From Apostichopus japonicus (Eukaryota; Echinodermata; Holothuroidea; Aspidochirotida; Stichopodidae), in the NCBI RefSeq assembly GCF_037975245.1, contig NC_092576.1, positions 76,501-140,500 on the forward strand: a DNA stretch of 64,000 nucleotides. The letters are read 5' to 3'. The notes beneath the pieces are model-generated. The model worked only from the letters and a program-made list of their open reading frames with translations. It made no database searches and had not been told where the DNA came from. Below, in pieces: positions 12,440 through 64,000 of the stretch. The position numbers and the translations under genes were made by a program. Every line of letters begins with the position of its first letter. The stretch's first letter is position 1.

Positions 12440-12960
12440 TCCACGATATGCAGATAAAGATTTATTTGGCAGTATAGAGCCAGATATAACTGGATTATCT
12501 GGATTTTGTATATATTAAACCGATAAAGTTGTATCTGGCCCAGATATGGATGGCAAAAAATTTAGCCAGATAAAAAATTTAATGGGCCATATAAAAGTTT
12601 ATCTGGATTTCTTTATATCAACCAGATAAAGTTTTATCTGGCCCAGATATATGGAAGCCATAAACTTCAACCATATCAAATTTGATATGGGCCATATAAA
12701 AGTGTATCTGGATTTTCTTTATATCAACCAAATAAATTTTTATCTGGCCCAGATATGGATGCAATAAAATTTAACCAGATCAAATGTTATATGGGCCGTA
12801 AAAAACTTTATTTTATATCAAGTTATATCTGCTCAATTTTTTATCTGGCCAGATATAAATTCCAGATCTGGAGCAGATCTGGCCCAGATTGAAATTCCAG
12901 ATCTGGGCCAGATCTGGGCCAGATCTGGGACCGGAATCTTCTCGTTTCATATAAGATTTT
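12440..12960. repeat. diverged tandem repeats of TATCTGG...CCAGATAT type
   Basis: Irregular units contain tatctggcccagatatggat and ccagataaa.tt; the last part (12860-12930) is ccagatctgggccagatctgg. The same kind of repeat covers 52640-53860. Confidence 0.8.
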
Positions 12961-15338: not shown

Positions 15339-15394
<56 letters not shown>

Positions 15395-15452
15395 GGTTGG
15401 CGTCTATCTTGGCGCAGAGTGCTCTATGTCCATTGGACAGAGCGGAATATAT

Positions 15453-15487
15453 GATCGCTATAACGCGTGAAACTCCGAGTTACAACT
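15453..15487 (+). ncRNA. truncated hammerhead copy (core box lost)
   Basis: Keeps ATCGCTATAACGCG, GAAACTCCGAGTTACAACT but lacks the 5' stem I strand and CTGA, so it cannot fold as a hammerhead. Confidence 0.6.
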
Positions 15488-15516
15488 ACTAGTGATCCAC
15501 TAGTCTCATCTAGTAT

Positions 15517-15605
<89 letters not shown>

Positions 15606-15660
15606 ATATATATATAAATATATATATGTTGATACTAGATGAGACTAGTGGAACACTAGT

Positions 15661-15706
15661 AGTTGTAACTCGGAGTTTCACGCTTTATAGCGATCTTCAG
15701 ACAACT
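15661..15706 (-). ncRNA. hammerhead ribozyme motif, minus copy in the palindrome
   Basis: Identical in all 46 positions to 62528-62573 and to the inverted copy 15712-15757: AGTTGT, CTGAAGA, CGCT/AGCG, GAA, ACT/AGT, T, ACAACT. Confidence 0.72.
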
Positions 15707-15711
15707 CAGGC

Positions 15712-15757
15712 AGTTGTCTGAAGATCGCTATAAAGCGTGAAACTCCGAGTTACAACT
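15712..15757 (+). ncRNA. hammerhead ribozyme motif, plus copy in the palindrome
   Basis: Same 46-nt hammerhead as 15661-15706, opposite strand, starting five bases after it. The pair could also fold into one long perfect hairpin, which would compete with ribozyme folding. Confidence 0.72.
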
Positions 15758-15853
15758 ACTAGTGTTCCACTAGTCTCATCTAGTATCAACATATATTCCG
15801 CTCTGTCCAATGGACATAGAGCACTCTGCGCCAAGATAGACGCCAACCTACTC

Positions 15854-15885
<32 letters not shown>

Positions 15886-15933
15886 ATTGAAAACATAATG
15901 ATAAGAAAAATCCAGAACAGTGAAAAACTTCCA

Positions 15934-16004
15934 GCCTCCACCGGGATTCGAACCCGGGCCTCCCACTTTGTACGCGGACACCCTAACCACTAGGCTATGG
16001 ACGC
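15934..16004 (-). tRNA. tRNA-like sequence, anticodon ACA (Cys-type), probably a pseudogene or SINE head
   Basis: Minus strand: acceptor GCGTCCA/TGGAGGC (one G-G mismatch), D arm CCT-AGTGGTT-AGG, anticodon arm TCCGC-GTACAAA-GTGGG, T arm CCGGG-TTCGAAT-CCCGG. A and B boxes are good. An ACA anticodon is unusual, and the flank plus T half is repeated at 16132-16186, so a repeat-derived copy is more likely than a working gene. Confidence 0.5.
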
Positions 16005-16131
16005 TGATTGTATGTCCAGAGGTTCGAAACCTGTGTCGAACAATACTGGTTCTGTTTTTGGTGACATATTTGCCTTACTCTAGAGATCAAACATGGTGCT
16101 AACCAACTCGATGATCTCGAAAGTTGGGCAA

Positions 16132-16186
16132 CCCAGAACAGTGAAAAAAGTCCAGCCTCCACCGGGATTCGAACCCGGGCCTCCCA
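16132..16186 (-). repeat. direct repeat of 15912-15965 including the tRNA T-arm half
   Basis: ccagaacagtgaaaaa...ccagcctccaccgggattcg aacccgggcctccca occurs at both places 220 bp apart; here it ends after the T arm (ctccca). Confidence 0.8.
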
Positions 16187-17103
16187 TTTTAAGTTTTAGC
16201 GGATAGTTTCAAGTTGAAGTAGTGTAATAAACTGTAAATTTGTGCAAAATCTTATTCTTGGAATTATTTAAACAATTATAACAAGAATTAAAAACAATTG
16301 TTTTAAGTAAACTGTAAGTTGTTCACAAGTAAATGTCTTTCATAATTAAAGATTATTTTAGATAAATGTCACACCTAGTTGTCAGATATTTCCACGTGAA
16401 TAACCAATTTAAGGAGAAAAACCCAGTACTTTTTTCTGAGTATTTTTTTCCTCTTCTAAAATACCAGCGAAGTTAAACACCCTATGTCAATTCTCCTCGC
16501 TGAGGGTTACTATCCAAAGCAAGTGGCCACAAAGTTTCATTTATATTTTTTGGCAAAATTTGGAATTTTCAGTAAAATTCGTACACTGTATATAGCAGAG
16601 TAACATAATTAATATTATATCTGCTGTGGCTTCTTTGTGTACGAGAGTGACCTTTATGTTAACAATCCATAATGTCTGATCGTCTTCTACAACACATACA
16701 ATTATACTTTGAAGAAGTTTGTTTATTATTTGCTGGGAAATTCTGAGAACGTTTCGTGCCTAAGTGTTGTTACTGTAAGGACAATTATTTCGAGCACTTC
16801 CGTTGTCGATGACAATTCCATGGAATGAACCTGTTATCTACCGGTTTAACTGTGGGTTAGTCCATATATATATTTCTGATATATCTGATATATTATATCA
16901 ATACACACGATTTTTGTGTACTTTTATATTATCATCCTAAACTTGTATTCCTTTCTGGCGTTCCATAGACTTCTGCTCAACATCGATCTGCAGCCCAATC
17001 TCCAATATTTAAATCATCTGTCATATTCTGACAGATTCAGTTTAAACAATAATCGTTGAATCGTTGTCCTCGTTCGTGTATACACCTCGACTAAATTCTG
17101 GAC
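16187..17103. other. 3' flank of the sialyltransferase gene
   Basis: Would hold its 3' UTR on the minus strand; an AATAAA on that strand at about 16725 is the only possible poly(A) signal seen. Confidence 0.35.
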
Positions 17104-17386
17104 TCATCCAGTGACATTTGCAGCGGCTGTCACACAAGGATCATACACAAGCCGAAGTAGACCTCTTTTGTGCATATCTTTCAGCATTTTATGTTCCCTG
17201 TCAAAATTATGTGCCCTGGTGTGGAAATTAGTCAGGTTTGGCTGGTAGTAATGATGCAGTACCGGCCTGCCATGCGGGTCTTTCTCGTAGGGATAGAAAC
17301 CGTAGAGAGTAATGTTCACACAGAGTGACTCAGCGACAGCTAAGATGTCTATACCAGAGGATGGGTAACCTCGAAATTTCCATTCC
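17104..17386 (-). CDS. ST8Sia-like terminal exon with sialyl motifs S, III and VS
   Basis: Opens EWKFRGYPSSG, continues to HHYYQPNL and HNFDREHKML, and ends VYDPCVTAAANVTG before TGA. All catalytic-domain landmarks after motif L are on this one exon. Confidence 0.87.
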
Positions 17387-19066
17387 CTATAATGAAGTGC
17401 AATAAAATATAAAATAAATAAAAAAGGTATAGTATGAAAGAAAGAAAACGAACTTGGTTGTAATACTTCACTTTGCAATTAAGCTTGGATATATATTAAA
17501 AGTACGTACCTTCATTGGAAAGTAATACATGACAAAGAGGTCAGGGCGCGTATATCCAACCATCCTACCACCCCCCCCCCCACTCACTCGCCCACCACCA
17601 CCCCTCTATCGCCGGAGCTCACACAAAACTCCACAAGTATTTATTTTCACGACTTTGATTTAAACCTGATTAAGATTCTAATAATGCCGCAGAATGCACA
17701 ATTTGACCTCAAAAGTATTCATTTTTGTACGGGGTACCCCATCACGCTATGCGTGGGGGTCGCCTTCATTGACACAGGGCCTTCCTTTATCAACTCCTGG
17801 GTAAACCCTGCAAGTGGAATCAATTAAGTGCCATTTAAGAGAGGAAAAAAACATGATATCGATTAGTAGGCCGCGTATAAACGTGTAGCCTTAGAATAAC
17901 GGACGGACCCAGCCGACGTGAAAATATTTCGTATATCTTTTAGTCTAAAAACGGAGCACGACAGACGACAAGCTATTCGCTATCTCAACAAATGAATAAA
18001 TGCCAAACGAAAAAACGTGAAAATACTATGCCAAATAAAGCATCAATAATCATAACTTAAAACGGACTGCACACACACGTACACGCGCATAGGCATAAAG
18101 GGCAAAAGTGTTTTGTTCTCACATAAATACACCGATGTATATAGAAGAACAGATAGATGTTACACTTATTTTAGCACAGTGGTCCTTGCGCGCAAGGATT
18201 TTACACGACCAAGGAGCTTCCGAGAGGACTAAACCAATAACACCAGACCCCATCCCTCAGAATCAATGCTCGGAATGCATGTTAGCTTGCTTAAAGACTA
18301 GTTAAGTCAGTAAGCTCCGAAAGCCGTATATAAATAGTTGTTTCGATTTCTGGAAAATTCTCACTTATCCTCAATTCTTTTTCGCCACCCATTTTGTTTT
18401 CAGTTTTTTAGAAAACACCATATGCATATATATATATATGTTTATACTGACTTGGATTTAACGGCTTCAGTAACGTGCATCATACTGTAAGCAAGTTTCG
18501 GACGTAACTCATTCTCGGCAAAGAAGGTTGCAATCTTTTGTAGCCTGGTTGCGGAGTTATGTGCTTCGGTACTCTTAGCAAACCAGATAGTACTGTCGTT
18601 TAAGTGTCTCGTGATATATTTCATCATCGCATTGAGGCCATCGACGCCCGATTTCTTATCGACGAGGGTATTATACATGTTCGTCAATGTCTCATCATTG
18701 ATCATCATAACCGAAGTCTTGTTGCCGACATCTTGTTCGTAACTTTCCAATCCGGCAAAGTTCGCTCTAATCACCAAATCGTTGGCGTCTATCTCTTGCC
18801 CGCATCGGCTCTGGAGGATAATGCCTCCGTTCCCAATAATTGCACATTTTCTAACTTTTCTCAAGGTCCGATAAACCGGATCAATTTCATCTAAGGAACA
18901 GAAAGGTCGTCTCTGAAATTTCCCATTTGTGGCATCGCTTACAAGAGAAGATAAGTTCATTTGACGGATCATCGGAGAAAACTGTTGTCTAAATTTCATT
19001 AGGTCCGGCGAAACATTTTGATAAACTAAAATCACGGAATTCGGCTCAAAGCAAGACTCTTGATTT
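17104..19066 (-). CDS. ST8Sia-like sialyltransferase (GT29), 3' two coding exons; N-terminus not proven
   Basis: Exons are 19066-18452 (one base, 204 codons, two bases) and 17386-17104 (one base, 93 codons, TGA). The junction codon AA/G gives Lys, and the donor AA/gtcagt and acceptor attatag are canonical. GT29 enzymes transfer sialic acid from CMP-Neu5Ac onto glycans in the Golgi lumen. Sialyl motif L is plain (CAIIGNGG, SRCGQEID, DVGNKTS), as are motif S (PSSG, then Cys eleven residues after the Gly, then LYGFYPY), motif III (HHYY), motif VS (H-N-F-D-R-E) and the near-terminal DPC Cys. One deviation is RAN where ST8Sia proteins usually have RCN in motif L. The cytosolic tail and membrane anchor must lie in an upstream exon ending in phase 2. 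Acceptor linkage cannot be told from sequence; ST8Sia is favoured by the HHYY and VS forms. Confidence 0.85.
17387..18451 (-). other. intron of the ST8Sia-like gene
   Basis: gtcagt ... attatag; contains a C run at 17570-17582 and CCACC repeats. Confidence 0.85.
18452..19066 (-). CDS. ST8Sia-like exon with stem region and sialyl motif L
   Basis: The acceptor is tccttttcttcacag followed by AAATCAAG; only phase 2 upstream gives an open frame. The peptide starts NQESCFEPNS and contains motif L. The donor is AA/gtcagt. Confidence 0.87.
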
Positions 19067-20635
19067 CTGTGAAGAAAAGGAAAGGATGACAATTTACAAC
19101 CATTATTACCAAACATTGTCAATCATGTCGTGTACGAATCCACAGTGTTTCAAATTTTACTATTTACTGACCAACGTTTTGCAGATCCCTGGGTGGCATT
19201 CAAACTGGTTTCCTAAGTGATCCCAAATTTCACCTTCATCACCTTGACGACTCTCCAATGGTCAAATTGTCTACAAGGAAGAGGTATGCCTCTTTCACAA
19301 ATGAATGTGCGTGCTTAATTACAAAATGGTGTTACACTTTGCAACTTACTAAAGCACAAAAACACACACAAATATCGGCAGTAGTGTTTTATTTTCTCTC
19401 GAATTTTAAGCGATCCCTTAAATCTTTTTACGACCATTAAAGGGGTCACGAGGGTCAAAGGTTTTAAGCGATGCTTTGTAAAGACCTGTAAACAGCCTAC
19501 GATGAAACGCAGAACATGGCAAGATATGTTTTACATGTGTGCAGATCTGTATATTTATTATTTTTAAGTACGTTCATATATAGAATTGAACAAGTATCTG
19601 ATATGATCGTACATATATAATATTAAGCAAGTTGTTGTGTGTTGAGTCACTATAAGAGTGACTCCATTGTTTCTATATATTGCAGTCTGATTATCGGATA
19701 TCATCATAAATAATTGAGTATGTTGTAGTATGATGGCAACGTGACATCATGTTCGTCAATATTCGGGCGCACAATTTTAGAGAAAGATGACTATTAAGAT
19801 AAATGTTGTAAAAAAGTTGCGAGAATGGAGTCTCGAGAAGTTTATTGAAACTTTTGAAGGTAAAATATAGTGAGTTCAAATAAACTGCACCACTTATGAT
19901 CCATGTTTTAATCGTGTTGCTTATATTCTCATGCCTAATTCAGCAACGCTATCACGTTTTGTGTCCAGTTGTCAGACGAATATAGTCTAGGCCTACCCAC
20001 AGGCTTTCAAAATGATAGTTAGCCTATAGGTAGGCCTATATACTATAGGCTCGTGTAAGATTTCAAAATGAATGACAACTTACAAGTAATGTCTTGCAGA
20101 CTTTCACACATATACTTATATTTTTATGTTATATCCTGAGTTTACCAACAACCAGGCCCGTAGCCAGCGTGGATCACGGGGGGGGGGCGTGCCCCCGTGC
20201 AAGGGTCCGTGCCCCCCCTTGTAAAATATTGGTAAGAAAAAAGATTGCATGAAATTAAACGAATAAAATTGTAAAATGTTGTTGTTTACATGAATTGCAA
20301 TTTGTTTTTTAGTTTGAAAATTTAATTTCGAAGAGTATAGTTTGCAGCCTCCCTTTCCATCCGCCCTGATCTCCACCTGCCCCTTCCCACCCACTATAGT
20401 ATTTCTATGCTAAAACTGCAAACTCTCAATAGAAGTCCTGTATAGGCTACTGTAATTTTCACCAGGTTCTTCATACATGTAATGTATACAAATAATACGC
20501 GTGTTTCTACACCCCTTCACACGCGCGTTTCTACACCCCTTCACAATACAATGGAAAAGTTGCACAGTGATCATACACTCGGGGCACATTGTTGTAAAGT
20601 TGTTTTAGTTGGAGCTTTGCCTAACTACCTACAAT
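19067..20635. other. upstream of the sialyltransferase exon, probably intron
   Basis: A possible small minus-strand exon at 19150-19255 (ECHPGICKT) was not accepted because its best donor has the wrong phase. Otherwise only the MITE end at 20152. Confidence 0.35.
20152..20230. mobile_element. MITE left end (caggcccgtagccagcg)
   Basis: A terminus of the same general type followed by long G and C runs; no matching right end identified nearby. A possible isolated right end, ggctactggcctg, is at 35825-35837. Confidence 0.4.
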
Positions 20636-35736: not shown

Positions 35737-35909
35737 ACAATAATGCGTTATATTTATTTTCTCATAAAATTATTTGTTCCCCCCCCCCTTGATACTATGG
35801 TGCCCCTCCGTGTACAAAATCCTGGCTACTGGCCTGCCAACAACAAGGTTCTTAGATGGTTAGTCAACAAAATAAGTACTACCATGATAATTTTATGTAT
35901 AAAAGTGAG

Positions 35910-35949
35910 TCTGACGTTTCGATTCTAGCAGGATCTTTTTTCAGAGGCC
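35910..35949 (-). ncRNA. decayed copy of the same hammerhead motif
   Basis: Minus strand: GGCCT, CTGAAAA (core G changed to A), GATCC-TGCTA-GAATC, GAAACGTC, then AGAC, so stem I no longer pairs. The flank (AATGACAAG) matches the 58.3-kb copy; it is a solo remnant of that element. Confidence 0.6.
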
Positions 35950-36743
35950 GAATGACAAGTATTATGCATCAATATTTCATTTGACAATAGTTTTAATTGA
36001 ATAGCAGACAGTTTATGAAGAACCAACAGCTAATACCTAAAACCCATATCTCAGTTGCAAATAGGCCTGTTGTTAACTTTTATGAGCTTTACCATGAAAA
36101 ATGGACTGGTATTTGCTCATCATTCTCAATCCGGATTTTTGAGCCACATTTTCACTAGTAAATTTAATGCAGCTAATTAGGCTAGTTTTTGAACTTGGTT
36201 GATGTACTTACTATTTTCAGCATTTATGCTTCACTCTTCCTATATGCTGTCATTTTACCAATGCTAGACAAGTTGTAACAGTAATGATGGTTTTGTGGGC
36301 ATGCAGGACACGCAATTCCTGTACCATGATCGTGATAATGTGTGTATGTTGGGTATGTTACATTTATTGGAACTGTGTAAATCGTATACATGCCTGTAAC
36401 CTGGTGTAAAATTATGGTTTTCTTTCTCATTCTTACCCAGTGGCAAGTTCTACTGCAGCCAACAATTTAACATTGTCATGTGAATGTGTGTTACTATGGC
36501 AAGATATGTAAATTGTTTCTTATCAGAAAATAAATTTCTTCAAATTCGATATCGATTTTCTAATGTAGGTTCTTATACTATAAACTAGTATCTTCTATAT
36601 ATTGTCCTTATTTTGTTAAAGTGTTTAGTTTAGAGACTCAAGGATCAGCAAGCCTTATAGTAGCTTATTTGAGACCCTATCCGTGTTAGATCTTGGATGA
36701 ACACCGGCTTATTTCAAGAATTTTCTTGATGATAAGTGTTCAG

Positions 36744-54805: not shown

Positions 54806-55337
54806 GAAGAGTTTGTATGATTTTAGTGTGTCAAACCTAACGACCCTATACCAAAATTTCCGAGAACACGAAGATTGCGTGTGGCTTGCATTCATTGTCT
54901 CAACGTAGAATTTCTCTTTGCCAAGTTATAGTCTTTTACTAGGCAATTACTATTAATACAACACAAATAGTGGAATACTCCTCAAGAGTATGCGGCAAGG
55001 AGATTGACTCGCATGATTACGTCATGATGGCCAATATGGCGGTAACAGTAGGCTTCAGTGATGACGTAGGCAACAAGACTTCGCTGATGATGATCAACGT
55101 TGAGATGACAACTAACATATTCAACGATACCATTTTTCCTGATAACGGTACGGTCTATGACGCATTAATGGATAATCTTCGATCGTTAAATGATAGAATT
55201 TTGGGGTTTGCGAAATGATTGCCACATGGGAGTCCATTTTCGAAACAACTTCATGATATAGCCGGATACGTTCAGAAGAAGAACTTAAATACCACATTTG
55301 CGTGCATCTATAAGAGTGCTGGCAGTTTGGCCGTAAA
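54806..55337 (+). pseudogene. decayed sialyltransferase exon with motif L
   Basis: The acceptor cagcag/G and donor AA/gtaagt match the phases of the intact exon at 19066-18452. Readable pieces are NSGILLKS, CGKEIDSHDYV, DDVGNKTSLMMIN and, after a stop, QLHDIAGYVQKKNL. A frameshift separates NSGILLKS from CGKEID, an in-frame TGA interrupts at 55216-55218 right after GFAK, and the stem part contains further stops. RCN of the family is MAN here. It is therefore a dead paralogue, or a gene with several wrong bases; the decay in three places makes the first more likely. Confidence 0.72.
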
Positions 55338-58315
55338 GTAAGTATGCTTATTCTTTAGCGTTGTTTGTCTGTATGTGGCTATGTGTTGTTGAGTGTTGTA
55401 TATGCAAAGTCATACATATTAGCAGACCTGTGCAGTACTTACACACTGCAAATGTATATGCAGGAAGCAACTTCAGATAGAGTCAAGAAAGATCACATAT
55501 CCTACACCGGGTGTTTATGTTAAATGTTAGGTTTCACAACAGGACGAAGGGAATCTGTGACGTCAAAATTCATCTTCCTTATTTAGGAGCGAGGAATAGG
55601 CCAGAGGAGGGAGCTTGCTATCAAAAACATATTTTTTCTCAATCTGTAAATCGGATCAAAATAAACTTTTGATGCTTCGGGCTAATTTGGTCGATATAGT
55701 TACAGAGAGCACTCTGAAATAATCTTATTTAAGTATAACACTCGTTCATATACCCAGCAAGTGGCAGTTACAGCTTAAGTTAAGCACTCTGTGGATACAA
55801 CTGCCAAACAATTAAACACATGATTTGGCTAATCATTTCAATGTTCAAGACCGTCCATACATTCCGGCACTGATCTTCCACGAATTTCAAACCTGAAAAG
55901 TTAAAACTTTATAATTCAGTTTACCAATGTTAATCGGACTACTACAACGATGCCAACCGTAAGCTTTGGACCATCGTCCTGCACCTTAAATCAAACCCTT
56001 GCGATAATGTTGACGATGGTGGTGAACAAATTCAATCTTTTCGGTATGTCTAATCTCAATATTATTTTTTTTTATTAATTAATCAAATGATCTCTGACTA
56101 TAAGCTACTTTTGATGTCTCAATGGGAACGTATACCAACTTTGCAGTAATTACTGTGCCACCTGTAACACATGTTACCGTGCTACGAACACAGCGCACTA
56201 GTATGCACGGTTGTGGAACATGAACAGTACTTACTGTACTAGCTATGAGTATCGGGTGGTCTATGGCATTATGAAATTAGTAGCATCCTCAGTTGCTATT
56301 GGTACATCAGAGAGCGCAGTTCATATACAGGCTGTTTAAAGCCATTGGTTTTGAAAAGCTTGGAAAGCTGCCTTATAAGATTAAAATGTATAACTTTTTA
56401 ACAACTAGCAAGGGCGTCATTCTTTAAGAGTGCCAGAAGTGGTTAAAAAGTTATACGAAATCGGAAAAGGATGTTTCAGCAAACAACCTACTGGGACGAC
56501 CAAGTCTACATCAACCTGCTCATGCATTTGAGCTATTATTGAATGGCTTCTTTTCATCCAGTGACGTAACCTCGTCTCAGATTTGACTTCTAGGAAGCTC
56601 TTGCGGAGAAGAATTCTTACTGCTGTAATACGTTTTGAAAACTGTTTTACCACTGAGTGGCCGAGAATAATATTCAGTTATGTTTTCACAAATTTGCTTG
56701 CATAGTTTTTCTTCGCAATTGAACAAGTTATATGCGCGAGATCATTCAGGAGTCTTTGTTCATTCATGTTTTATCTGTAAGTTTTGATACGGAGAGTATT
56801 AATATTTTTGGAAAGAAACCTGCATGTCGTAGATAATTGTCATTGGAATCAGATTGTCCCACGCGTAAACACCCTAGTTATTCAATAATTTGATTGATCA
56901 AGAATGCAGACTTGTGTTATGCCTCTTTATTGGTGACAAATGGTCTTATATTTTGACCATTTTTGTAGCCAAGAGAGACATGTGTCTTTTTTGTACATGC
57001 AACAATAGCTATAGCTATAGATAGGGGGTTTGTAAAATGTTCATTCATCTGATCATTTCCTACAGGGTCATAAATGGAAATGAATAGTTCCCTTTGCAAT
57101 ACTAGAATATAAACACAGGAAATATTAAGTACGCGAATGACCTTAGGACCACTTGTTATGATATACCAGCCTGAGTTAACACCAATGGACGAACTAATAT
57201 GTAGTCAATGGTCTACAGTTGCCTCGATAGACCCATTTTTTCGTACCACATGTATATCCACTTATGTACTCTGACATCCAAGCCAAAAAGAAAAAGAAAC
57301 AAAAGTAAACCAGATCTTGATAACACATCGAAAAAGATTTCCTGTTTTTGTTCATTCCTACATGAGATCACTCGAACGGATTGACATTGGACTTTATAAG
57401 GAGTTTTGCCACCCTTATGCTTTAGAAAGAATGTGAGACAAACGACTTCTCCAGAATTTGACCTTATTTGCCTCTAGGCAAGAAGAAGACAGATGTGATG
57501 AGATGCTTGTGATGAAATACATGAAACCTAAATAAAGTCATCACCTGGTAACTTCTCTCTCTGAAAGTGATAATTTTGAATCTTTCCGTTGTTAATTACC
57601 TACTTTCATTGTACATAGGACTCCACGAGAGATGAAGTTTGGAATGAAACATCACGAAGTAGGAATTCACGCTCTGGGAATCGTGCACTAGCTATTTATT
57701 GAGAGCAAAATCTATTAATTTCACATTTCACACCTCATCTTCCCGCTTCTTAAAAAGGCCTTGTCTTATGGACTTTGCAGTTTTAAAGAGATTGTGTCAA
57801 CCAAATCGATCGAAAGATAACAAATCAGTTGAACTATAGGTCGTAATGTATTTGTCCAAAAGGATCGCGTGTTACTTTTAGATTTGATAGAAAATGTATG
57901 ATTGTTTATAATCAGTTATTATCCATTCGCAGGCAATGATAGCTTTTTGTTAACATGCTTTCAAGATAAGCTGGGAGTACTGGACTGAACAAACAATATA
58001 CTCTGGTGAACTGTTGTTTTACATCTAGCATTGGTATAGTCTATACCTCTACAAATATTATGTGACATCCCAATGGGCTACAGAGCTATGACTATGTCAT
58101 TCTCATCAAAGCGGACGGAAATGCAATTCCCTAAGTATCGCCTTCCCTGAAATAGTCACAACATCTTCAACAACGCTTACTTGAGAACCAAAATGAAAAA
58201 TAAGTTAACCAAACTTGTCATTTCTTCTCTCAATTAACTTAAAATAAAATAAAACTAATAGTAAACTACTTATCCACTAGACAGCCTGTGTAATAGAATG
58301 TGTAAAAGTAAGTTG
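55338..58315. other. no supported gene apart from the weak remnant at 57619-57691
   Basis: Would be the 3' side of the decayed sialyltransferase locus. The 3' noncoding end of the Penelope-like element may reach into 58230-58315. Confidence 0.4.
57619..57691 (+). pseudogene. possible remnant of the terminal sialyltransferase exon
   Basis: After a gtacatag acceptor the frame with one leading base (matching phase 2) reads TPREMKFGMKHHEVGIHALGIVH then a stop, with weak similarity to the intact exon start (EWKF...GI..L). Only a few residues agree, and no YGF or HHYY follows. Confidence 0.2.
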
Positions 58316-58354
58316 GCCTGACGTTTCGATCCTAGCAGGATCTTCTTCAGAGGC
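58316..58354 (-). ncRNA. hammerhead ribozyme motif at the 3' end of the Penelope-like element
   Basis: Read on the minus strand: stem I GCCT/AGGC, core CTGAAGA (CUGANGA rule), stem II GATCC-TGCTA-GGATC with one unpaired A, core GAA-A, a minimal stem III AC/GT without loop, and GTC as the cleavage triplet. The order and all invariant bases fit a type-I minimal hammerhead. Such forms, reported from Penelope-like elements, are thought to need a dimer because stem III is too short. Confidence 0.7.
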
Positions 58355-59172
58355 TAAATGACAAGTAACAGTATAACAGAATGGACAAAAACACGCACAG
58401 AATACAGACAGGTTAATGAGCACGGTGAACACAATGGGATAGATGAAAGGGGATTATAAGTAGACAAGGGATGGAGAGAAGAAAGCAACAGGGGAAGAGG
58501 AGAGGTAGGAGATAAACAGTGGAGGGACAAAGAGAGGATTAAAGGAACAGGGTGGGGAATAAACTGGAAAGTGACAAAGACAGAAAGGAGTGGAGAAAAA
58601 AGGAGGGGAAGAGAGCTGTGAGAAGATGAGTAAAGGGGGTGGGGGTGGGGGAGGGAACAGGGGGAGAAGGAGGGGGGATAGAAGAAAAGTTTATCATGTC
58701 CTTCCTGAATGTTCAGCCCATGAGGTTGAATGGTGCGAAGGCGTTGCATCCACAGCCTCTCTCTGCTGATTCGTACTAGGTCAGGACGGCTACCTAAGGA
58801 TTCAATCCCCTGTAGGGACATGTCGTTTATGGTATGGTTGGGAAGGTTAAAATGTTCTCCAACTGGGGTCTCAGTCTTCATGGTGTTGACTGTGGATCTG
58901 TGACCATAAAATCGCTTCTTGAGGGTGGTTTTGGTTTCGCCAACATACTGGATGCCGCAAACTCTACAAGAGATCAGATAGATGACATTGGTGATAGTGC
59001 AAGTGATGTGACCCTTAGTCTTGTGTGTGAGTTGCATGCTGTGGCTGGTGATGGAATTGGATTCAACAATGTGGTGGCTGCAGACGATGCATCTCGAAGT
59101 ACGATCACATTTGAAAGTAACGTGCTGAATGGGTGTAGGGTTAGAAATTAGAAGTGGAACAGCAGCACGCAC
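58354..59172 (-). pseudogene. GIY-YIG endonuclease part of the Penelope-like element
   Basis: Reads IQHVTFKCDRTSRCIVC (CxxC knuckle), then the GIY-YIG box YLISCRVCGIQYVGET, KKRFYGHRS and VGEHFNLPNH. After about HGLNIQEGHDK the frame continues into a polypurine/polypyrimidine tract (58440-58690) that looks like 3' noncoding DNA, and it ends at the hammerhead motif. In the element the domain nicks target DNA. Confidence 0.82.
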
Positions 59173-62100
59173 AAGAAGGTCTCGTAGGTTGCGTGGTCGT
59201 CTGTAGGCGATGATGGGTTTTCAGGGACGGCTCGTTGTAGTCTATCTGAAGTGAGGAGAATGTTGTGGTTGTTAGAGGTGATTTTCTGAAGAGGAGGAAG
59301 ATTTGGGTGGAAAGTAACAACCAGGGGCAGCTTGTGGTCGCAATCTCGTCCCTTTTTGTCCTTCACTGCCAAAGTAGATGATCTCGAAAGGGAGCGGGCT
59401 CTCTGAATGGCTTCACGCACCCTTCTGGCACTATGGCCCCTGGCAGTAAGGTGTTTTTCCAAAGCATCTGTATGGCGAATGAAAGAGGAGTTGTTAGAGC
59501 AAATGCGACAAAGACGAAGTGCTTGACTGTATGCAACTCCAGATTTGCAGTGACGGGGATAGCAGCTTGAAGAATGGAGATACTGGTGTGTGTCTGTGGG
59601 CTTAGTGTATATGTCTGTAGAGAGAGAACCGTGTTCCTTGCGAACAGTCACATCGAGAAAGTTAACCTGTTGGTGAGAGTAATCAGAGGTGAATTTGATG
59701 GTGCTGTGGAAAGAATTGATGTGATTGATGAAGGTGTGTAGGCTATCCTCATCACTGGTCCAAACGAAGAAGATGTCACCAATGTAGCGCCACTAGATAA
59801 TGGGACGGCAGGGAGCTGTACTGAGCATGCGTTCTTCAAGGCTAGACATAAACAGGCATGCATAGGAAGGAGCCATCCTGGTTCCCAGGCAGTCCCGTGT
59901 CTTTGAAGGTAATGCTTGTCCATGAACGTGAAGTTGTGTTTGGTGAAAACCTGTTGCATGAGAACTTTGATGTCAGAGATGGGTGGACAAGGGTGGACCT
60001 TCTTAGACAGGGCTGCACCCGTGGCTGCGATACCTTCAGCATGAGGGATGTTGGTGTAAAGAGAGGTGACGTCGAAAGTACCAATGATGGCTGTACTGGG
60101 GATTTGGTTCTTGATATCTTCAAGTTTTCTGAGGAAATCTGGAGTGTTATGGATATAAGAATTAATCTGAGGAACAAGAGGTTTGATGAAGTGGTCCACA
60201 AACAAGGATATCTTCTCGGTGAGGGACCCATTGCCTGAGATAATAGGCTTACCAGGGTTACCGGGCTTGTGAATTTTGGGCAGGATATAAAACCTGGCTG
60301 CCTTACATTCTGTGGGAGAGAGGAAAGAAACAGCCTTCTTAGAGATCTGGTTCGGCTGGTACATATCAGTGATGGTCTGTTTTATCTGCTGGGAGAAAAT
60401 AACTGTGGGATCAGAATCAAGAAGAGTGTAAATATCACTGTTGGAGAGATGACGCATGGCTTCCTTGATGTAATCCTGTTGATCCTAGATGACAACTGCA
60501 GAACCTTTGTCGGCTGACTTAATGGTAATGTCACTGCGAGACATCAGTGAGGGGAGTGCTGTACGCTCATCTCTAGGAAGGTTGTCGTGTGTTCTGCGGA
60601 GAGGAGAGTTTGACTGGTTAGTCTCAGAGCTGACGACCTGTGTGTAGGCTTCTAAAACAGGGACTCTGTTCTTAGGAGGCATCCAATAACTTTTCTTGCA
60701 GAAAGGTTCCCGTTCAGTTGGAGGATCATCTAGGAAAAACTCACGAAGGCGAATTCTGCGAAAGAAATGAGTATGATCTTGGCTTAGTTCCGCTTGGTCA
60801 AATGATGAAGGAGTAGGACAGAAGTTGAGTCTTTTGGAGAGAAGCCCAAGGTCTGCACTGGTGAGAGTAGGAGAAGATAAGTTAACAAATGACGTTGAGG
60901 GTGGTTGTTCAGACTCAGGTGGAGTCTGGGTCCTTCTAAAACGGTTGCAAGCGGTACGTTTGCGTCTTTTCTGAAGGTCAGTCATTTTCTTATTTCTTCT
61001 TTCTGTGAGTTCAATGTTCTGCTGAGACAAACACAAGTTAATTTTGTTAGTGTACTGAGTCCATTCGTCAACGGTGCAGCATGACTGTAATTCAAGCTTC
61101 AGCCTCAGGATATCATCGTTGAGGCTATCTAAGGACGATTGGCAGTGTTTGGTGAGGATGTTTATGAGACGGATGGAGGTGCTGTGTAAGACTCGGTTGC
61201 ACTCTCTCTGGAGTCCTGGAGGGAGTTCTCCTAGTGCTGGTTGGTGTGTAACCTGTAGACCTGAGGGAATAATGCGGGAGATAGAGCTGAACCTGTAGTT
61301 ACGAAGGTGGAAAGAATAGCGCTGGGATTTCTGCATCAATTTTCTGAGCTTCTGAAACAAAAGAAATTGGTGAGACATGGTGAAAGGAGCGGTAAGAGTA
61401 GATAACAAAAATGAATAAAACACTGAAACACAAGAATACAATACAAGTGCAAATACAAATCAATTAACTAACCAGACTTGTTTTGAAAATAATTCCTCGT
61501 TTACCATAAATTTGTTCTTCAAATTTAGCGTAGGCATAGGAACCAGAGGAGGGGTCCAAGGAGCTGGATAGGTATACGCTTTGAAACTAGGTATGGGTTG
61601 GATTTTAATTAGAGATACACTATATAGGATGTTGTATTAGCAAACAGAACGCCCAATCATATATAAACTACTTTTTCGTTCACATGTGAGTAATCCTTTT
61701 TTTGGTTTGTGATGGAGCAATTCATGTTTGGTGTGTCCGAAACCTCCTGAAATTAAAAGCTTAATCGGGAAGAACGAAAACATGTGGTAGTAATAATCGC
61801 TATACATATTTTGTCCCTGTCGTGATTCACAGAATTTAAAAATGTGATAATGTGTCCAATATCGATTTTTTGGGCCAAAAGTCCGTAACCACGTGCAGTT
61901 ATTAATGACAATCGTATCACAGGATGTGCGAACAGCGGGTTTGTATGTAAACTTTGAAGATTATTATTATTATTATGTTTTAAGAGGTTAAAGGGTTGTG
62001 GCATTTGATGCAATGAGACTTCGCAATTTGGTGGTTTGGGGGATCGATACACGGCCGGATCATAGTAAGGTGGATTTTTTCTTTATCCAAGAGCAATCTA

Positions 62101-62380
62101 CGGTTTTTACCTTCTCATTTGGTAAGATTCAAAATTTTAGTTAAAATATAAGTTGGAAACCACCTAAGTTGAAATCCATAACTCTTTGTGGGATTCTCCC
62201 AAATTAGTGGTCGCTTCTGTGTAGTAAATATCACTGCTTCATTATCTTCCTTCAAAAATGTCACTTGTTCTGTTGTAATAACAAGATATGTATTCTTTTG
62301 TTTTGCTTATTTTGTTTTCCCAGTGGATATTTGTAGTATAGATGTGAGAGGCTTCAAAAGAAATAAACTGTTATGCCTAG

Positions 62381-62382
<2 letters not shown>

Positions 62383-62421
<39 letters not shown>
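62383..62421. repeat. (TA)n microsatellite at the end of the pLTR-like unit
   Basis: Follows the 3' end of the hammerhead unit (minus orientation), as at 15339-15392 and 15858-15886. Confidence 0.95.
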
Positions 62422-62424
<3 letters not shown>

Positions 62425-62573
62425 TAGGTTAGAGTAGGTTGGCGTCTATCTTGGCGCAGAGTGCTCTATGTCCATTGGACAGAGCGGAATATATGTTGAT
62501 ACTAGATGAGACTAGTGGAACACTAGTAGTTGTAACTCGGAGTTTCACGCTTTATAGCGATCTTCAGACAACT
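62425..62573 (-). mobile_element. terminal (pLTR-like) unit: hammerhead plus 100-bp tail, ending in (TA)n
   Basis: From the hammerhead the minus strand continues through CTAGTCTCATCTAGTATCAA and TCCAATGGACATAGAGC to CCAACCTACTC, then (TA)n at 62383-62421. The same 140-bp unit occurs at 15712-15851. A ten-base end (agagtaggtt) is duplicated here. Confidence 0.75.
62528..62573 (-). ncRNA. hammerhead ribozyme motif downstream of the second GIY-YIG element
   Basis: Minus strand, 46 nt: stem I AGTTGT/ACAACT (6 bp), core CTGAAGA, stem II CGCT-ATAA-AGCG flanked by a T-T mismatch, GAA, stem III ACT-CCG-AGT, then T as position 17. All core bases fit. It follows the coding region of the 62961-64000 element once the SINE at 62586-62954 is removed. 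Confidence 0.72.
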
Positions 62574-62585
62574 GGTAGCTTCAAG

Positions 62586-62954
62586 ATATGATATGATATG
62601 ATACACCTCGTATTACGCTTCCACCCGAAGGTGCTTCAGCAGACTAAGGAAATCCTTAGTCGGAAATTATTGAGGTTCCAAGTTTTTGTGCGTGGAAGGA
62701 CACCGGCGAAACTCGCCTTCTCTTTTCGAATAGTGCCCTGAAGTAACGAGGCAGGGGTGTGTAGTCCTGCTCCCGGGACCGCAATTTAACGTCCCCTCCG
62801 AAGGACGTGAGTACCGCTTTCCACGTGTAGCCACTTTCCTACCACGAGAAAGGAGCGGGGTGAAAATTGGTGTCAGTGTCGACACCGAGGTTTGAACCAG
62901 GGACCTCAGGTACTGCAGACGTGCACTCTCCCGTTCTGCCACCTCACCGCTCTT
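62586..62954 (-). mobile_element. tRNA-derived SINE with perfect 11-bp target duplication
   Basis: Flanked by GTAGCTTCAAG at 62575-62585 and 62955-62965. The minus strand starts GAGCGGTGAGGTGGCAGAAC (A-box-like) and has GGTTCAAACCTC (B-box), then a body with GGGGACGTTAAATTGCGGTCC, and ends in an (ATATC)n tail. The insertion separates the second GIY-YIG element from its hammerhead unit. Confidence 0.8.
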
Positions 62955-62960
62955 GTAGCT

Positions 62961-64000
62961 TCAAGTTATGCTCCATGAATATATAGGGTCCTCGTCGGGA
63001 TTACCGGGGATTATGCGGTTGTTGGTGTATTGTTCTGCCGGAGTATTCTCTTTCGCGTCCGTTCTGTTTGTGGGTTTGTAAGACTTTCTTCGGTGTTCAG
63101 CTGTTGGTGTATTCTTTTTTGCGTCCGATCTGTTGTTGGGGTTTTTTGCCTTCCTTCGGTGCTCGCTCCTTAGTTGTGTGTGGTTCTCTTGACGGTGTTT
63201 GGTGGTTGGACTGGAGTTGTTTATGTAGAACTTGTTTTCGTGGCGACACTTCGATATGAGCTCTGGGCGTTTGTTCAGGAGGGTCCGTTTGTCTGTGTTG
63301 CTGATGATGAGTTTTTCAGTGAGACAGAGGTTGCACCGCTTCGACTCGTTGCTGTAGGCTTTGGCTCTGCTGGCGATCGACCAATTGATAGTGAATGGCT
63401 GGTTGTTCTGTTTCAGCTGCCAGATGTGCTTCGAGAGTTCCGTTGCGTTTTGGTGTTTTTCGTGGTTGAGCGACATCTTGTGGTTACCGTATCTGAGCTT
63501 GAAGGGGGGTTCTGTTAGGCCGATGTATGTCTTGCAGTTGTCGATGGTTTTCACTTCGGCCTTGTATATAATGTTAGATGCCTGGCAGTTTCCATTTAGT
63601 GGGCATGTGTCCTTTTTTTCGGCAGTTGCAGGCTTCCTTTTCTTTCGGTGTGCAACTGTATCTGACTTTCACGGTGTTTCTGTTGAAAATCTTGTATAGT
63701 TTCGATGTCTTCGGGAAGTGTTTGTTGATAAGTTTCAGGAATGTGCCTCCAATGTTCGTGGCTACGTTGCTGCTAAAAGGTGGGTTGAACCAGATGATGT
63801 TGCGCTTTCTGTTTCGGTTGTTCTTGGTAGGTTGGTGGGCGATGTATGAGAGACCCTCGGTGTAATTACTTGACTTGAGTGCTTCCTCGTAGGCTGGTGC
63901 GCCTTTCTTAAAGATCACCTCGTCGTGGGAGATGGCGGAGATACGTCTGCTGATTGAGGCTGGCAGGGACCTGATGATGTTTGGTGGGTGGTTGGAATTC
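62961..64000 (-). mobile_element. second GIY-YIG retroelement C-terminal region, cut by the window edge
   Basis: The minus-strand frame is open at 64000 (NHPPNIIRSLPASI), through EVIFKKGAPAYEEAL and WFNPPFSSNVATNIG to NRNTVKVRYSC, a stretch I know as the region between RT and nuclease in some Penelope-like or related elements. A run of seven A near 63620 carries one base too many; in the shifted frame NIIYKAEV, KTYIGLTEPPFKLRYGNH and ELSKHIW form the GIY-YIG domain, ending at 62961. After KFYINN the tail has two related units of about 21 residues (RSDAKKNTPTAEHRRK / RTDAKENTPAEQ). The RT would lie beyond the window. Confidence 0.72.

Follow-up and report, generated by a model that had tools for sequence, protein, structure and literature searches.

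A window of 64,000 nt from Apostichopus japonicus (contig NC_092576.1, positions 76,501 to 140,500 of the forward strand) carries two hammerhead-like motifs on its minus strand, designated HH1 and HH2. Each stands downstream of a same-strand nuclease frame, as an earlier note on this DNA had claimed and as is confirmed here; the retroelements in front of HH1 and HH2 are referred to as element 1 and element 2 (Table 1). We read these loci as the decayed remains of two Penelope-like retroelements (PLEs) from separate families, both bearing the minimal type I hammerhead found in PLE terminal repeats, a reading to which we assign a probability of about 0.88.

Read from 58354 to 58316, HH1 is GCCU-CUGAAGA-A-GAUCCU-GCU-AGGAUC-GAA-ACGU-C-AGGC; read from 62573 to 62528, HH2 is AGUUGU-CUGAAGA-U-CGCU-AUAA-AGCG-U-GAA-ACUCCGAGU-U-ACAACU. 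By a descriptor search, the core CUGANGA ... GAAA ... UH is present in both motifs in type I order, and stems I and II are paired in both (4 + 6 bp in HH1, 6 + 4 bp in HH2). Stem III consists of very few, self-pairing pairs, its sequence being palindromic in HH1 (ACGU) and nearly palindromic in HH2. The interval between GAA and the cleavage site of HH1 comprises only ACGU and a C, leaving a stem III of two pairs and no loop, and this stem cannot close inside one molecule; a 3-bp stem III with a 3-nt loop is possible in HH2. Computed folding of the HH1 monomer returned stems I and II as the minimum free energy structure (-11.5 kcal/mol). The stems of HH1 and HH2 are unrelated, as previously noted. 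The same note had taken differing stems around a conserved core as a mark of selection on folding, which is not established: because HH1 and HH2 are parts of two distinct element families, these differences are not changes within one lineage, and differences between families are expected anyway.

Table 1. Hammerhead motifs, their further copies and the accompanying elements (positions in the window)
Feature	Position	Strand	Basis or remark
HH1, minimal type I hammerhead motif	58316..58354	-	descriptor; stems I and II form the minimum free energy fold of the monomer
HH1 stem I	58351-58354/58316-58319	-	
HH1 CUGAAGA	58344-58350	-	
HH1 extra A	58343	-	
HH1 stem II	58337-58342/58328-58333	-	
HH1 GAA	58325-58327	-	
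HH1 palindrome ACGU	58321-58324	-	
HH1 predicted cut	after C58320	-	
HH2, type I hammerhead motif	62528..62573	-	descriptor; best Rfam match Hammerhead_HH9
HH2 stem I	62568-62573/62528-62533	-	
HH2 CUGAAGA	62561-62567	-	
HH2 stem II	62556-62559/62548-62551	-	U62560 opposite U62547
HH2 GAA	62544-62546	-	
HH2 ACUCCGAGU	62535-62543	-	
HH2 predicted cut	after U62534	-	
Exact HH2 copy, inverted partner of 15712-15757	15661..15706	-	descriptor, covariance model
Exact HH2 copy heading a full terminal repeat (pLTR) at 15711-15885	15712..15757	+	descriptor, covariance model
Broken HH2 copy	15453..15481	+	covariance model, 32.1 bits
Decayed HH1 copy, CUGAAAA core	35909..35948	-	covariance model, 43.8 bits
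Element 1 GIY-YIG endonuclease region	58687..59220	-	Pfam GIY-YIG 24.0 bits, cut-off 22.6
Element 1 upstream coding region, several broken frames	59148..61459	-	frames; reverse-transcriptase-like motifs by eye
Element 2 GIY-YIG-like nuclease frame	62961..63668	-	IIYKAEV...TYIGLTE...LRYGNHK; TGA stop 62961-62963
Insert read as a tRNA-derived short interspersed nuclear element (SINE)	62586..62954	-	box A/box B-like strings; ATATC repeats at 3' end
Element 2 terminal repeat (pLTR-like) with HH2, ending in (AT)n	62392..62574	-	95% identity over 183 columns to 15711-15885

The type I descriptor called for a stem I of at least 4 pairs, CTGANGA, a stem II of at least 4 pairs, GAAA, a stem III of at least 2 pairs and TH; it tolerated up to one unpaired base on each side of stem II, and any loop on a stem III from 2 bp upward. 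CTGANGA...GAAA alone occurs nine times in the window, and four of these nine places satisfy the full descriptor: HH1, HH2, and two exact HH2 copies that lie inverted to each other at 15.7 kb, three of the four thus being copies of one sequence. The same descriptor found 15 places, in 15 shuffles, among 1000 dinucleotide shuffles of the window. Two unrelated sequences matching in one window of 64 kb, with four full matches between them, are far above the 0.015 expected by chance, a figure that is generous since the tolerances were set after both motifs were known. That HH1 and HH2 are chance look-alikes standing beside retroelements is therefore extremely unlikely in our view, the more so as two different sequences both lie 3' of a same-strand nuclease frame, as is known for PLEs. 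For chance speak the scores of the Rfam models, given below, and the existence of look-alikes in large collections: an HH1-shaped pattern matched once in a collection of prokaryote genomes (L001 3523-3553, minus strand, a Rhodobacteraceae metagenome-assembled genome), stem I pairing included. We rejected this string as a true hammerhead and judged it a chance match; it lies antisense within an 828-aa bacterial frame, which from its appearance we take to be BamA-like. Viral contigs held no match to the HH1- or HH2-shaped patterns.

Element 1 extends over about 58.3-61.4 kb, and its GIY-YIG region scores only just over the Pfam cut-off. The upstream frames are interrupted by stops at 60485-60487 and 59793-59795 and, by eye, by frame changes near 59.87 and 59.22 kb; they contain the strings SLYTNIP, YIGDIFF and LPKIHKP, which look to be of PLE reverse-transcriptase type. 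A search of the PDB up to E 1 returned no match for two pieces, one of them an element 1 reverse-transcriptase piece, and none of the pattern matches in viral contigs (five with the element 1 nuclease, five with one reverse-transcriptase piece) was confirmed. The nuclease frame stays open to a TAG at 58354-58356, the G of which is the first base of HH1 stem I. Its final 110 codons are pyrimidine-rich low-complexity sequence, and because stops are rare by composition over this stretch, where the protein really ends is uncertain and the adjacency of HH1 to the nuclease is weak. Two stretches at the HH1 flank, 58213-58233 and 58346-58366, form an imperfect inverted repeat (21 nt, 81%), perhaps the trace of an inverted element 1 pLTR.

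The part of element 2 that precedes the nuclease is in a different frame and runs to the window edge; the 5' side and any reverse transcriptase would be outside the window. In BLASTP, the IY...YIG...R region of the nuclease aligns weakly to that of element 1 (E 1.5), and an AlphaFold model of the nuclease alone was unusable (mean pLDDT 41.6). Its motif, its position and the hammerhead behind it make element 2 probably a PLE. Of the two different GIY-YIG retroelements proposed before, element 1 is borne out by Pfam, and element 2 only by its motif and this weak alignment. The SINE is bounded by 11-nt duplications, CTTGAAGCTAC, at 62955-62965 and 62575-62585; once it is removed, the TGA stop of element 2 ends 7 nt before HH2 stem I. 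The earlier placement of the motifs directly behind the nuclease accordingly holds for HH2, and is weak for HH1 as explained above. A Pfam MTS match to the window's final piece (14.7 bits, cut-off 23) was set aside as weak.

Further copies, which go beyond the earlier note, occur elsewhere in the window. All 46 nt of HH2 are the same in its three complete copies. Two of them stand back to back at 15.7 kb, facing away from each other and five bases apart, inverted rather than tandem. Because a single RNA across this pair would fold into a long hairpin (-92.0 kcal/mol, computed), the pair could hardly be a ribozyme. The broken copy lacks the 5' strand of stem I and most of CUGAAGA. The surrounding region (15340-15885) is a palindromic cluster in which element 2 pLTR pieces alternate in orientation with (AT)n between them, and the part at 15.3-15.9 kb resembles the Penelope elements of a bdelloid rotifer, whose inverted pLTRs are described as having palindromes where they join (PMC3846280). 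The decayed HH1 copy sits in a short repeat (35895-35961; 84.5% match over 71 columns) and is the sole HH1 relative found in the window.

These copies were assessed with two covariance models of our own, R1 built from the HH2 copies and R2 from HH1 entered twice, both of which recover their own copies. Of the 22 matches to R1, 18 were left out of account, at E 0.4 to 10 and including three to the opposite strand of HH2 copies, as were 11 of the 13 matches to R2; one of the latter, at 12866-12902 (17.2 bits, E 0.0081), was rejected as an HH1 relative as it is without a core. In cross-searches up to E 10, the HH2 model missed HH1 and the HH1 model missed HH2, single-sequence models having little expected reach.

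The association of hammerheads with PLEs, invoked in the earlier note, is known from reviews. PLE hammerheads are described there as minimal type I ribozymes in which helix III is mostly missing and which may cut as dimers (PMC6155905; PMC7761336; PMC6466107); many animal genomes hold thousands of them, with an unknown role (PMC6155905; PMC7761336; PMC7229834; PMC6466107) that one review calls a "mystery" (PMC7761336). HH1 and HH2 share with them the type I order, the conserved core, the very short self-pairing stem III and the place behind a nuclease frame. HH1 comes close to the review description; HH2 also agrees with it, its stem III being somewhat longer. Work by Cervera and de la Pena in 2014 and by Lunse, Weinberg and Breaker in 2017 reportedly deals with such minimal type I hammerheads of PLEs. 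The present pair is a clean but ordinary example, such motifs having already been reported in PLEs. Both elements also resemble the Poseidon element PAc of Anolis, which has a C-terminal GIY-YIG domain and a hammerhead of stems I and II near the junction of pLTR and open reading frame (ORF); in PAc, however, the ORF begins at hammerhead stem II (PMC11167929), whereas no minus-strand frame of at least 120 codons starts within 1 kb downstream of HH1 or HH2.

Type I hammerheads within animal repeats are also known from the non-long-terminal-repeat (non-LTR) retrozymes, which differ in being small and non-autonomous and in carrying canonical hammerheads (PMC7229834). HH1 and HH2 might accordingly be canonical monomeric type I hammerheads of the retrozyme kind, as the possible looped stem III of HH2 and its best match to Hammerhead_HH9 would suggest. 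HH1 has no closable stem III, and nuclease frames accompany both motifs, unlike in retrozymes (PMC7229834); we regard this alternative as highly improbable.

If the motifs are PLE hammerheads, as we favor, tandem-copy transcripts of an active element would contain two of them. Two copies would pair through stem III, given its very small length and its palindromic or nearly palindromic sequence; the resulting double hammerhead would cut after GUC in HH1 or GUU in HH2, releasing unit-length RNA. Such dimeric cutting, and a role in processing the RNA of the element, would follow by analogy with the literature. The Anolis study reports that the hammerhead of that PLE cut only upon addition of the element protein (PMC11167929). 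The stem III pieces have computed self-pairing energies of -3.1 kcal/mol (HH1, 6 nt) and -9.6 kcal/mol (HH2, 11 nt); the HH1 piece with the HH2 piece reaches only -0.4 kcal/mol. The lowest-energy homodimer of HH2 (-23.4 kcal/mol) is a double hammerhead in which stems I are exchanged, each molecule keeps its own stem II, and stem III is formed jointly. On computed energies, the prediction would favor a dimer for HH2 and speak against one for HH1 (see below), the program being blind to tertiary contacts and protein.

A number of results weigh against our reading. Both motifs depart from the consensus beside stem II: in HH1 an additional A separates this stem from CUGAAGA, and in HH2 the first stem II position is a U facing a U, so that the pair next to the core is missing. 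Of the claim that core and stems are satisfied, therefore, the order of the core and the pairing of stems I and II stand, and the extra A, the ACGU stem III and the U.U depart from it. A viroid hammerhead with an extra core nucleotide has reportedly been published, and the nucleotide is said to have the same location as the A of HH1. The hammerhead fold of the HH2 monomer (-4.5 to -5.3 kcal/mol) is less stable than its best fold (-6.5 kcal/mol). For HH1, ACGU with ACGU yields only -1.7 kcal/mol, and the lowest-energy homodimer (-30.8 kcal/mol) is not a double hammerhead: two nearly palindromic stems II pair mutually and ACGU is left unpaired. A second HH1 searched for 5' of element 1 was not found, so that tandem HH1 copies are not seen there. 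Pfam returned no match for the element 2 nuclease frame or for the upstream (reverse transcriptase) pieces of element 1.

Every hammerhead model of Rfam stayed below threshold in the whole window and in two 91-nt pieces around the motifs. The best match of the HH2 piece was Hammerhead_HH9 (RF02275), whose core and nested stems align to HH2 with a score far under the gathering threshold (13.9 bits versus 52, E 0.39); the HH1 piece matched no hammerhead model, just two CRISPR repeat models, below threshold. Aligned to the model, the decayed HH1 copy has lost a pair in each of stems I and II, uncompensated; in the BLAST alignment, a 4-nt gap takes the place of the broken stem I pair. Scores below threshold and uncompensated changes had both been named in advance as grounds for refutation, and formally both were found. 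They are nonetheless weak objections and leave the identification as PLE hammerheads standing: the second copy of HH1 is dead, and helix III is largely absent from the PLE variants that have been described. The Rfam threshold is an operational criterion and not part of what defines a hammerhead, and the motifs are therefore assigned to no Rfam hammerhead family; the 35.9-kb copy is dead under either alignment and says little on selection on living copies.

Two reports of the Anolis study also weigh against our reading: hammerhead mutants still insert in vitro, and zero reads start or end at the cut site (PMC11167929). The first of these observations suits a view that overlaps our own, with the same origin and no function: HH1 and HH2 would be descendants of PLE hammerheads that no longer matter to their elements, the palindromes being retained merely as parts of insertion repeats. 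The frames of both elements are broken and the second HH1 copy is dead, in keeping with this view; against it stand the identity of the three complete HH2 copies, though they are perhaps just young, and the intact CUGAAGA and GAAA of HH1. We consider it a possibility, but an unlikely one. The copies in the window are probably inactive now.

Elsewhere in the window, two sialyltransferase exons (Pfam Glyco_transf_29) lie at 17104-17478 (-) and 18442-19122 (-), with 48.8 and 84.5 bits; 43 nt at 55063-55105 match the exon at 18442-19122 at 86%, which suggests a second related sialyltransferase gene or fragment. A tRNA-like sequence at 15932-16005 (-) scores 52.8 bits with the Rfam tRNA model and is called tRNA-Cys, anticodon aca, by ARAGORN. 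It is probably a tRNA-derived repeat, because 61 nt that overlap its 3' part are found again nearby at 93% (16130-16190).

The window adds a PLE-type hammerhead pair from two families within 5 kb and indicates that the Rfam hammerhead models can miss such motifs. A speculative and improbable extension is that the self-pairing stem III is a family tag, each PLE hammerhead cutting only with a partner of its own family, so that HH1 and HH2 transcripts in one genome would not cut each other. The idea stands better for HH2, because the HH2 homodimer is a double hammerhead and that of HH1 is not. A literature search for heterodimeric or orthogonal PLE hammerheads, a weak test, gave none that was relevant among the matches listed. 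Two families whose stems III do not match, residing in one genome, would permit a direct test of self-specific dimer cutting; should cutting depend on a same-family partner, stem III would serve as a tag for self-recognition.

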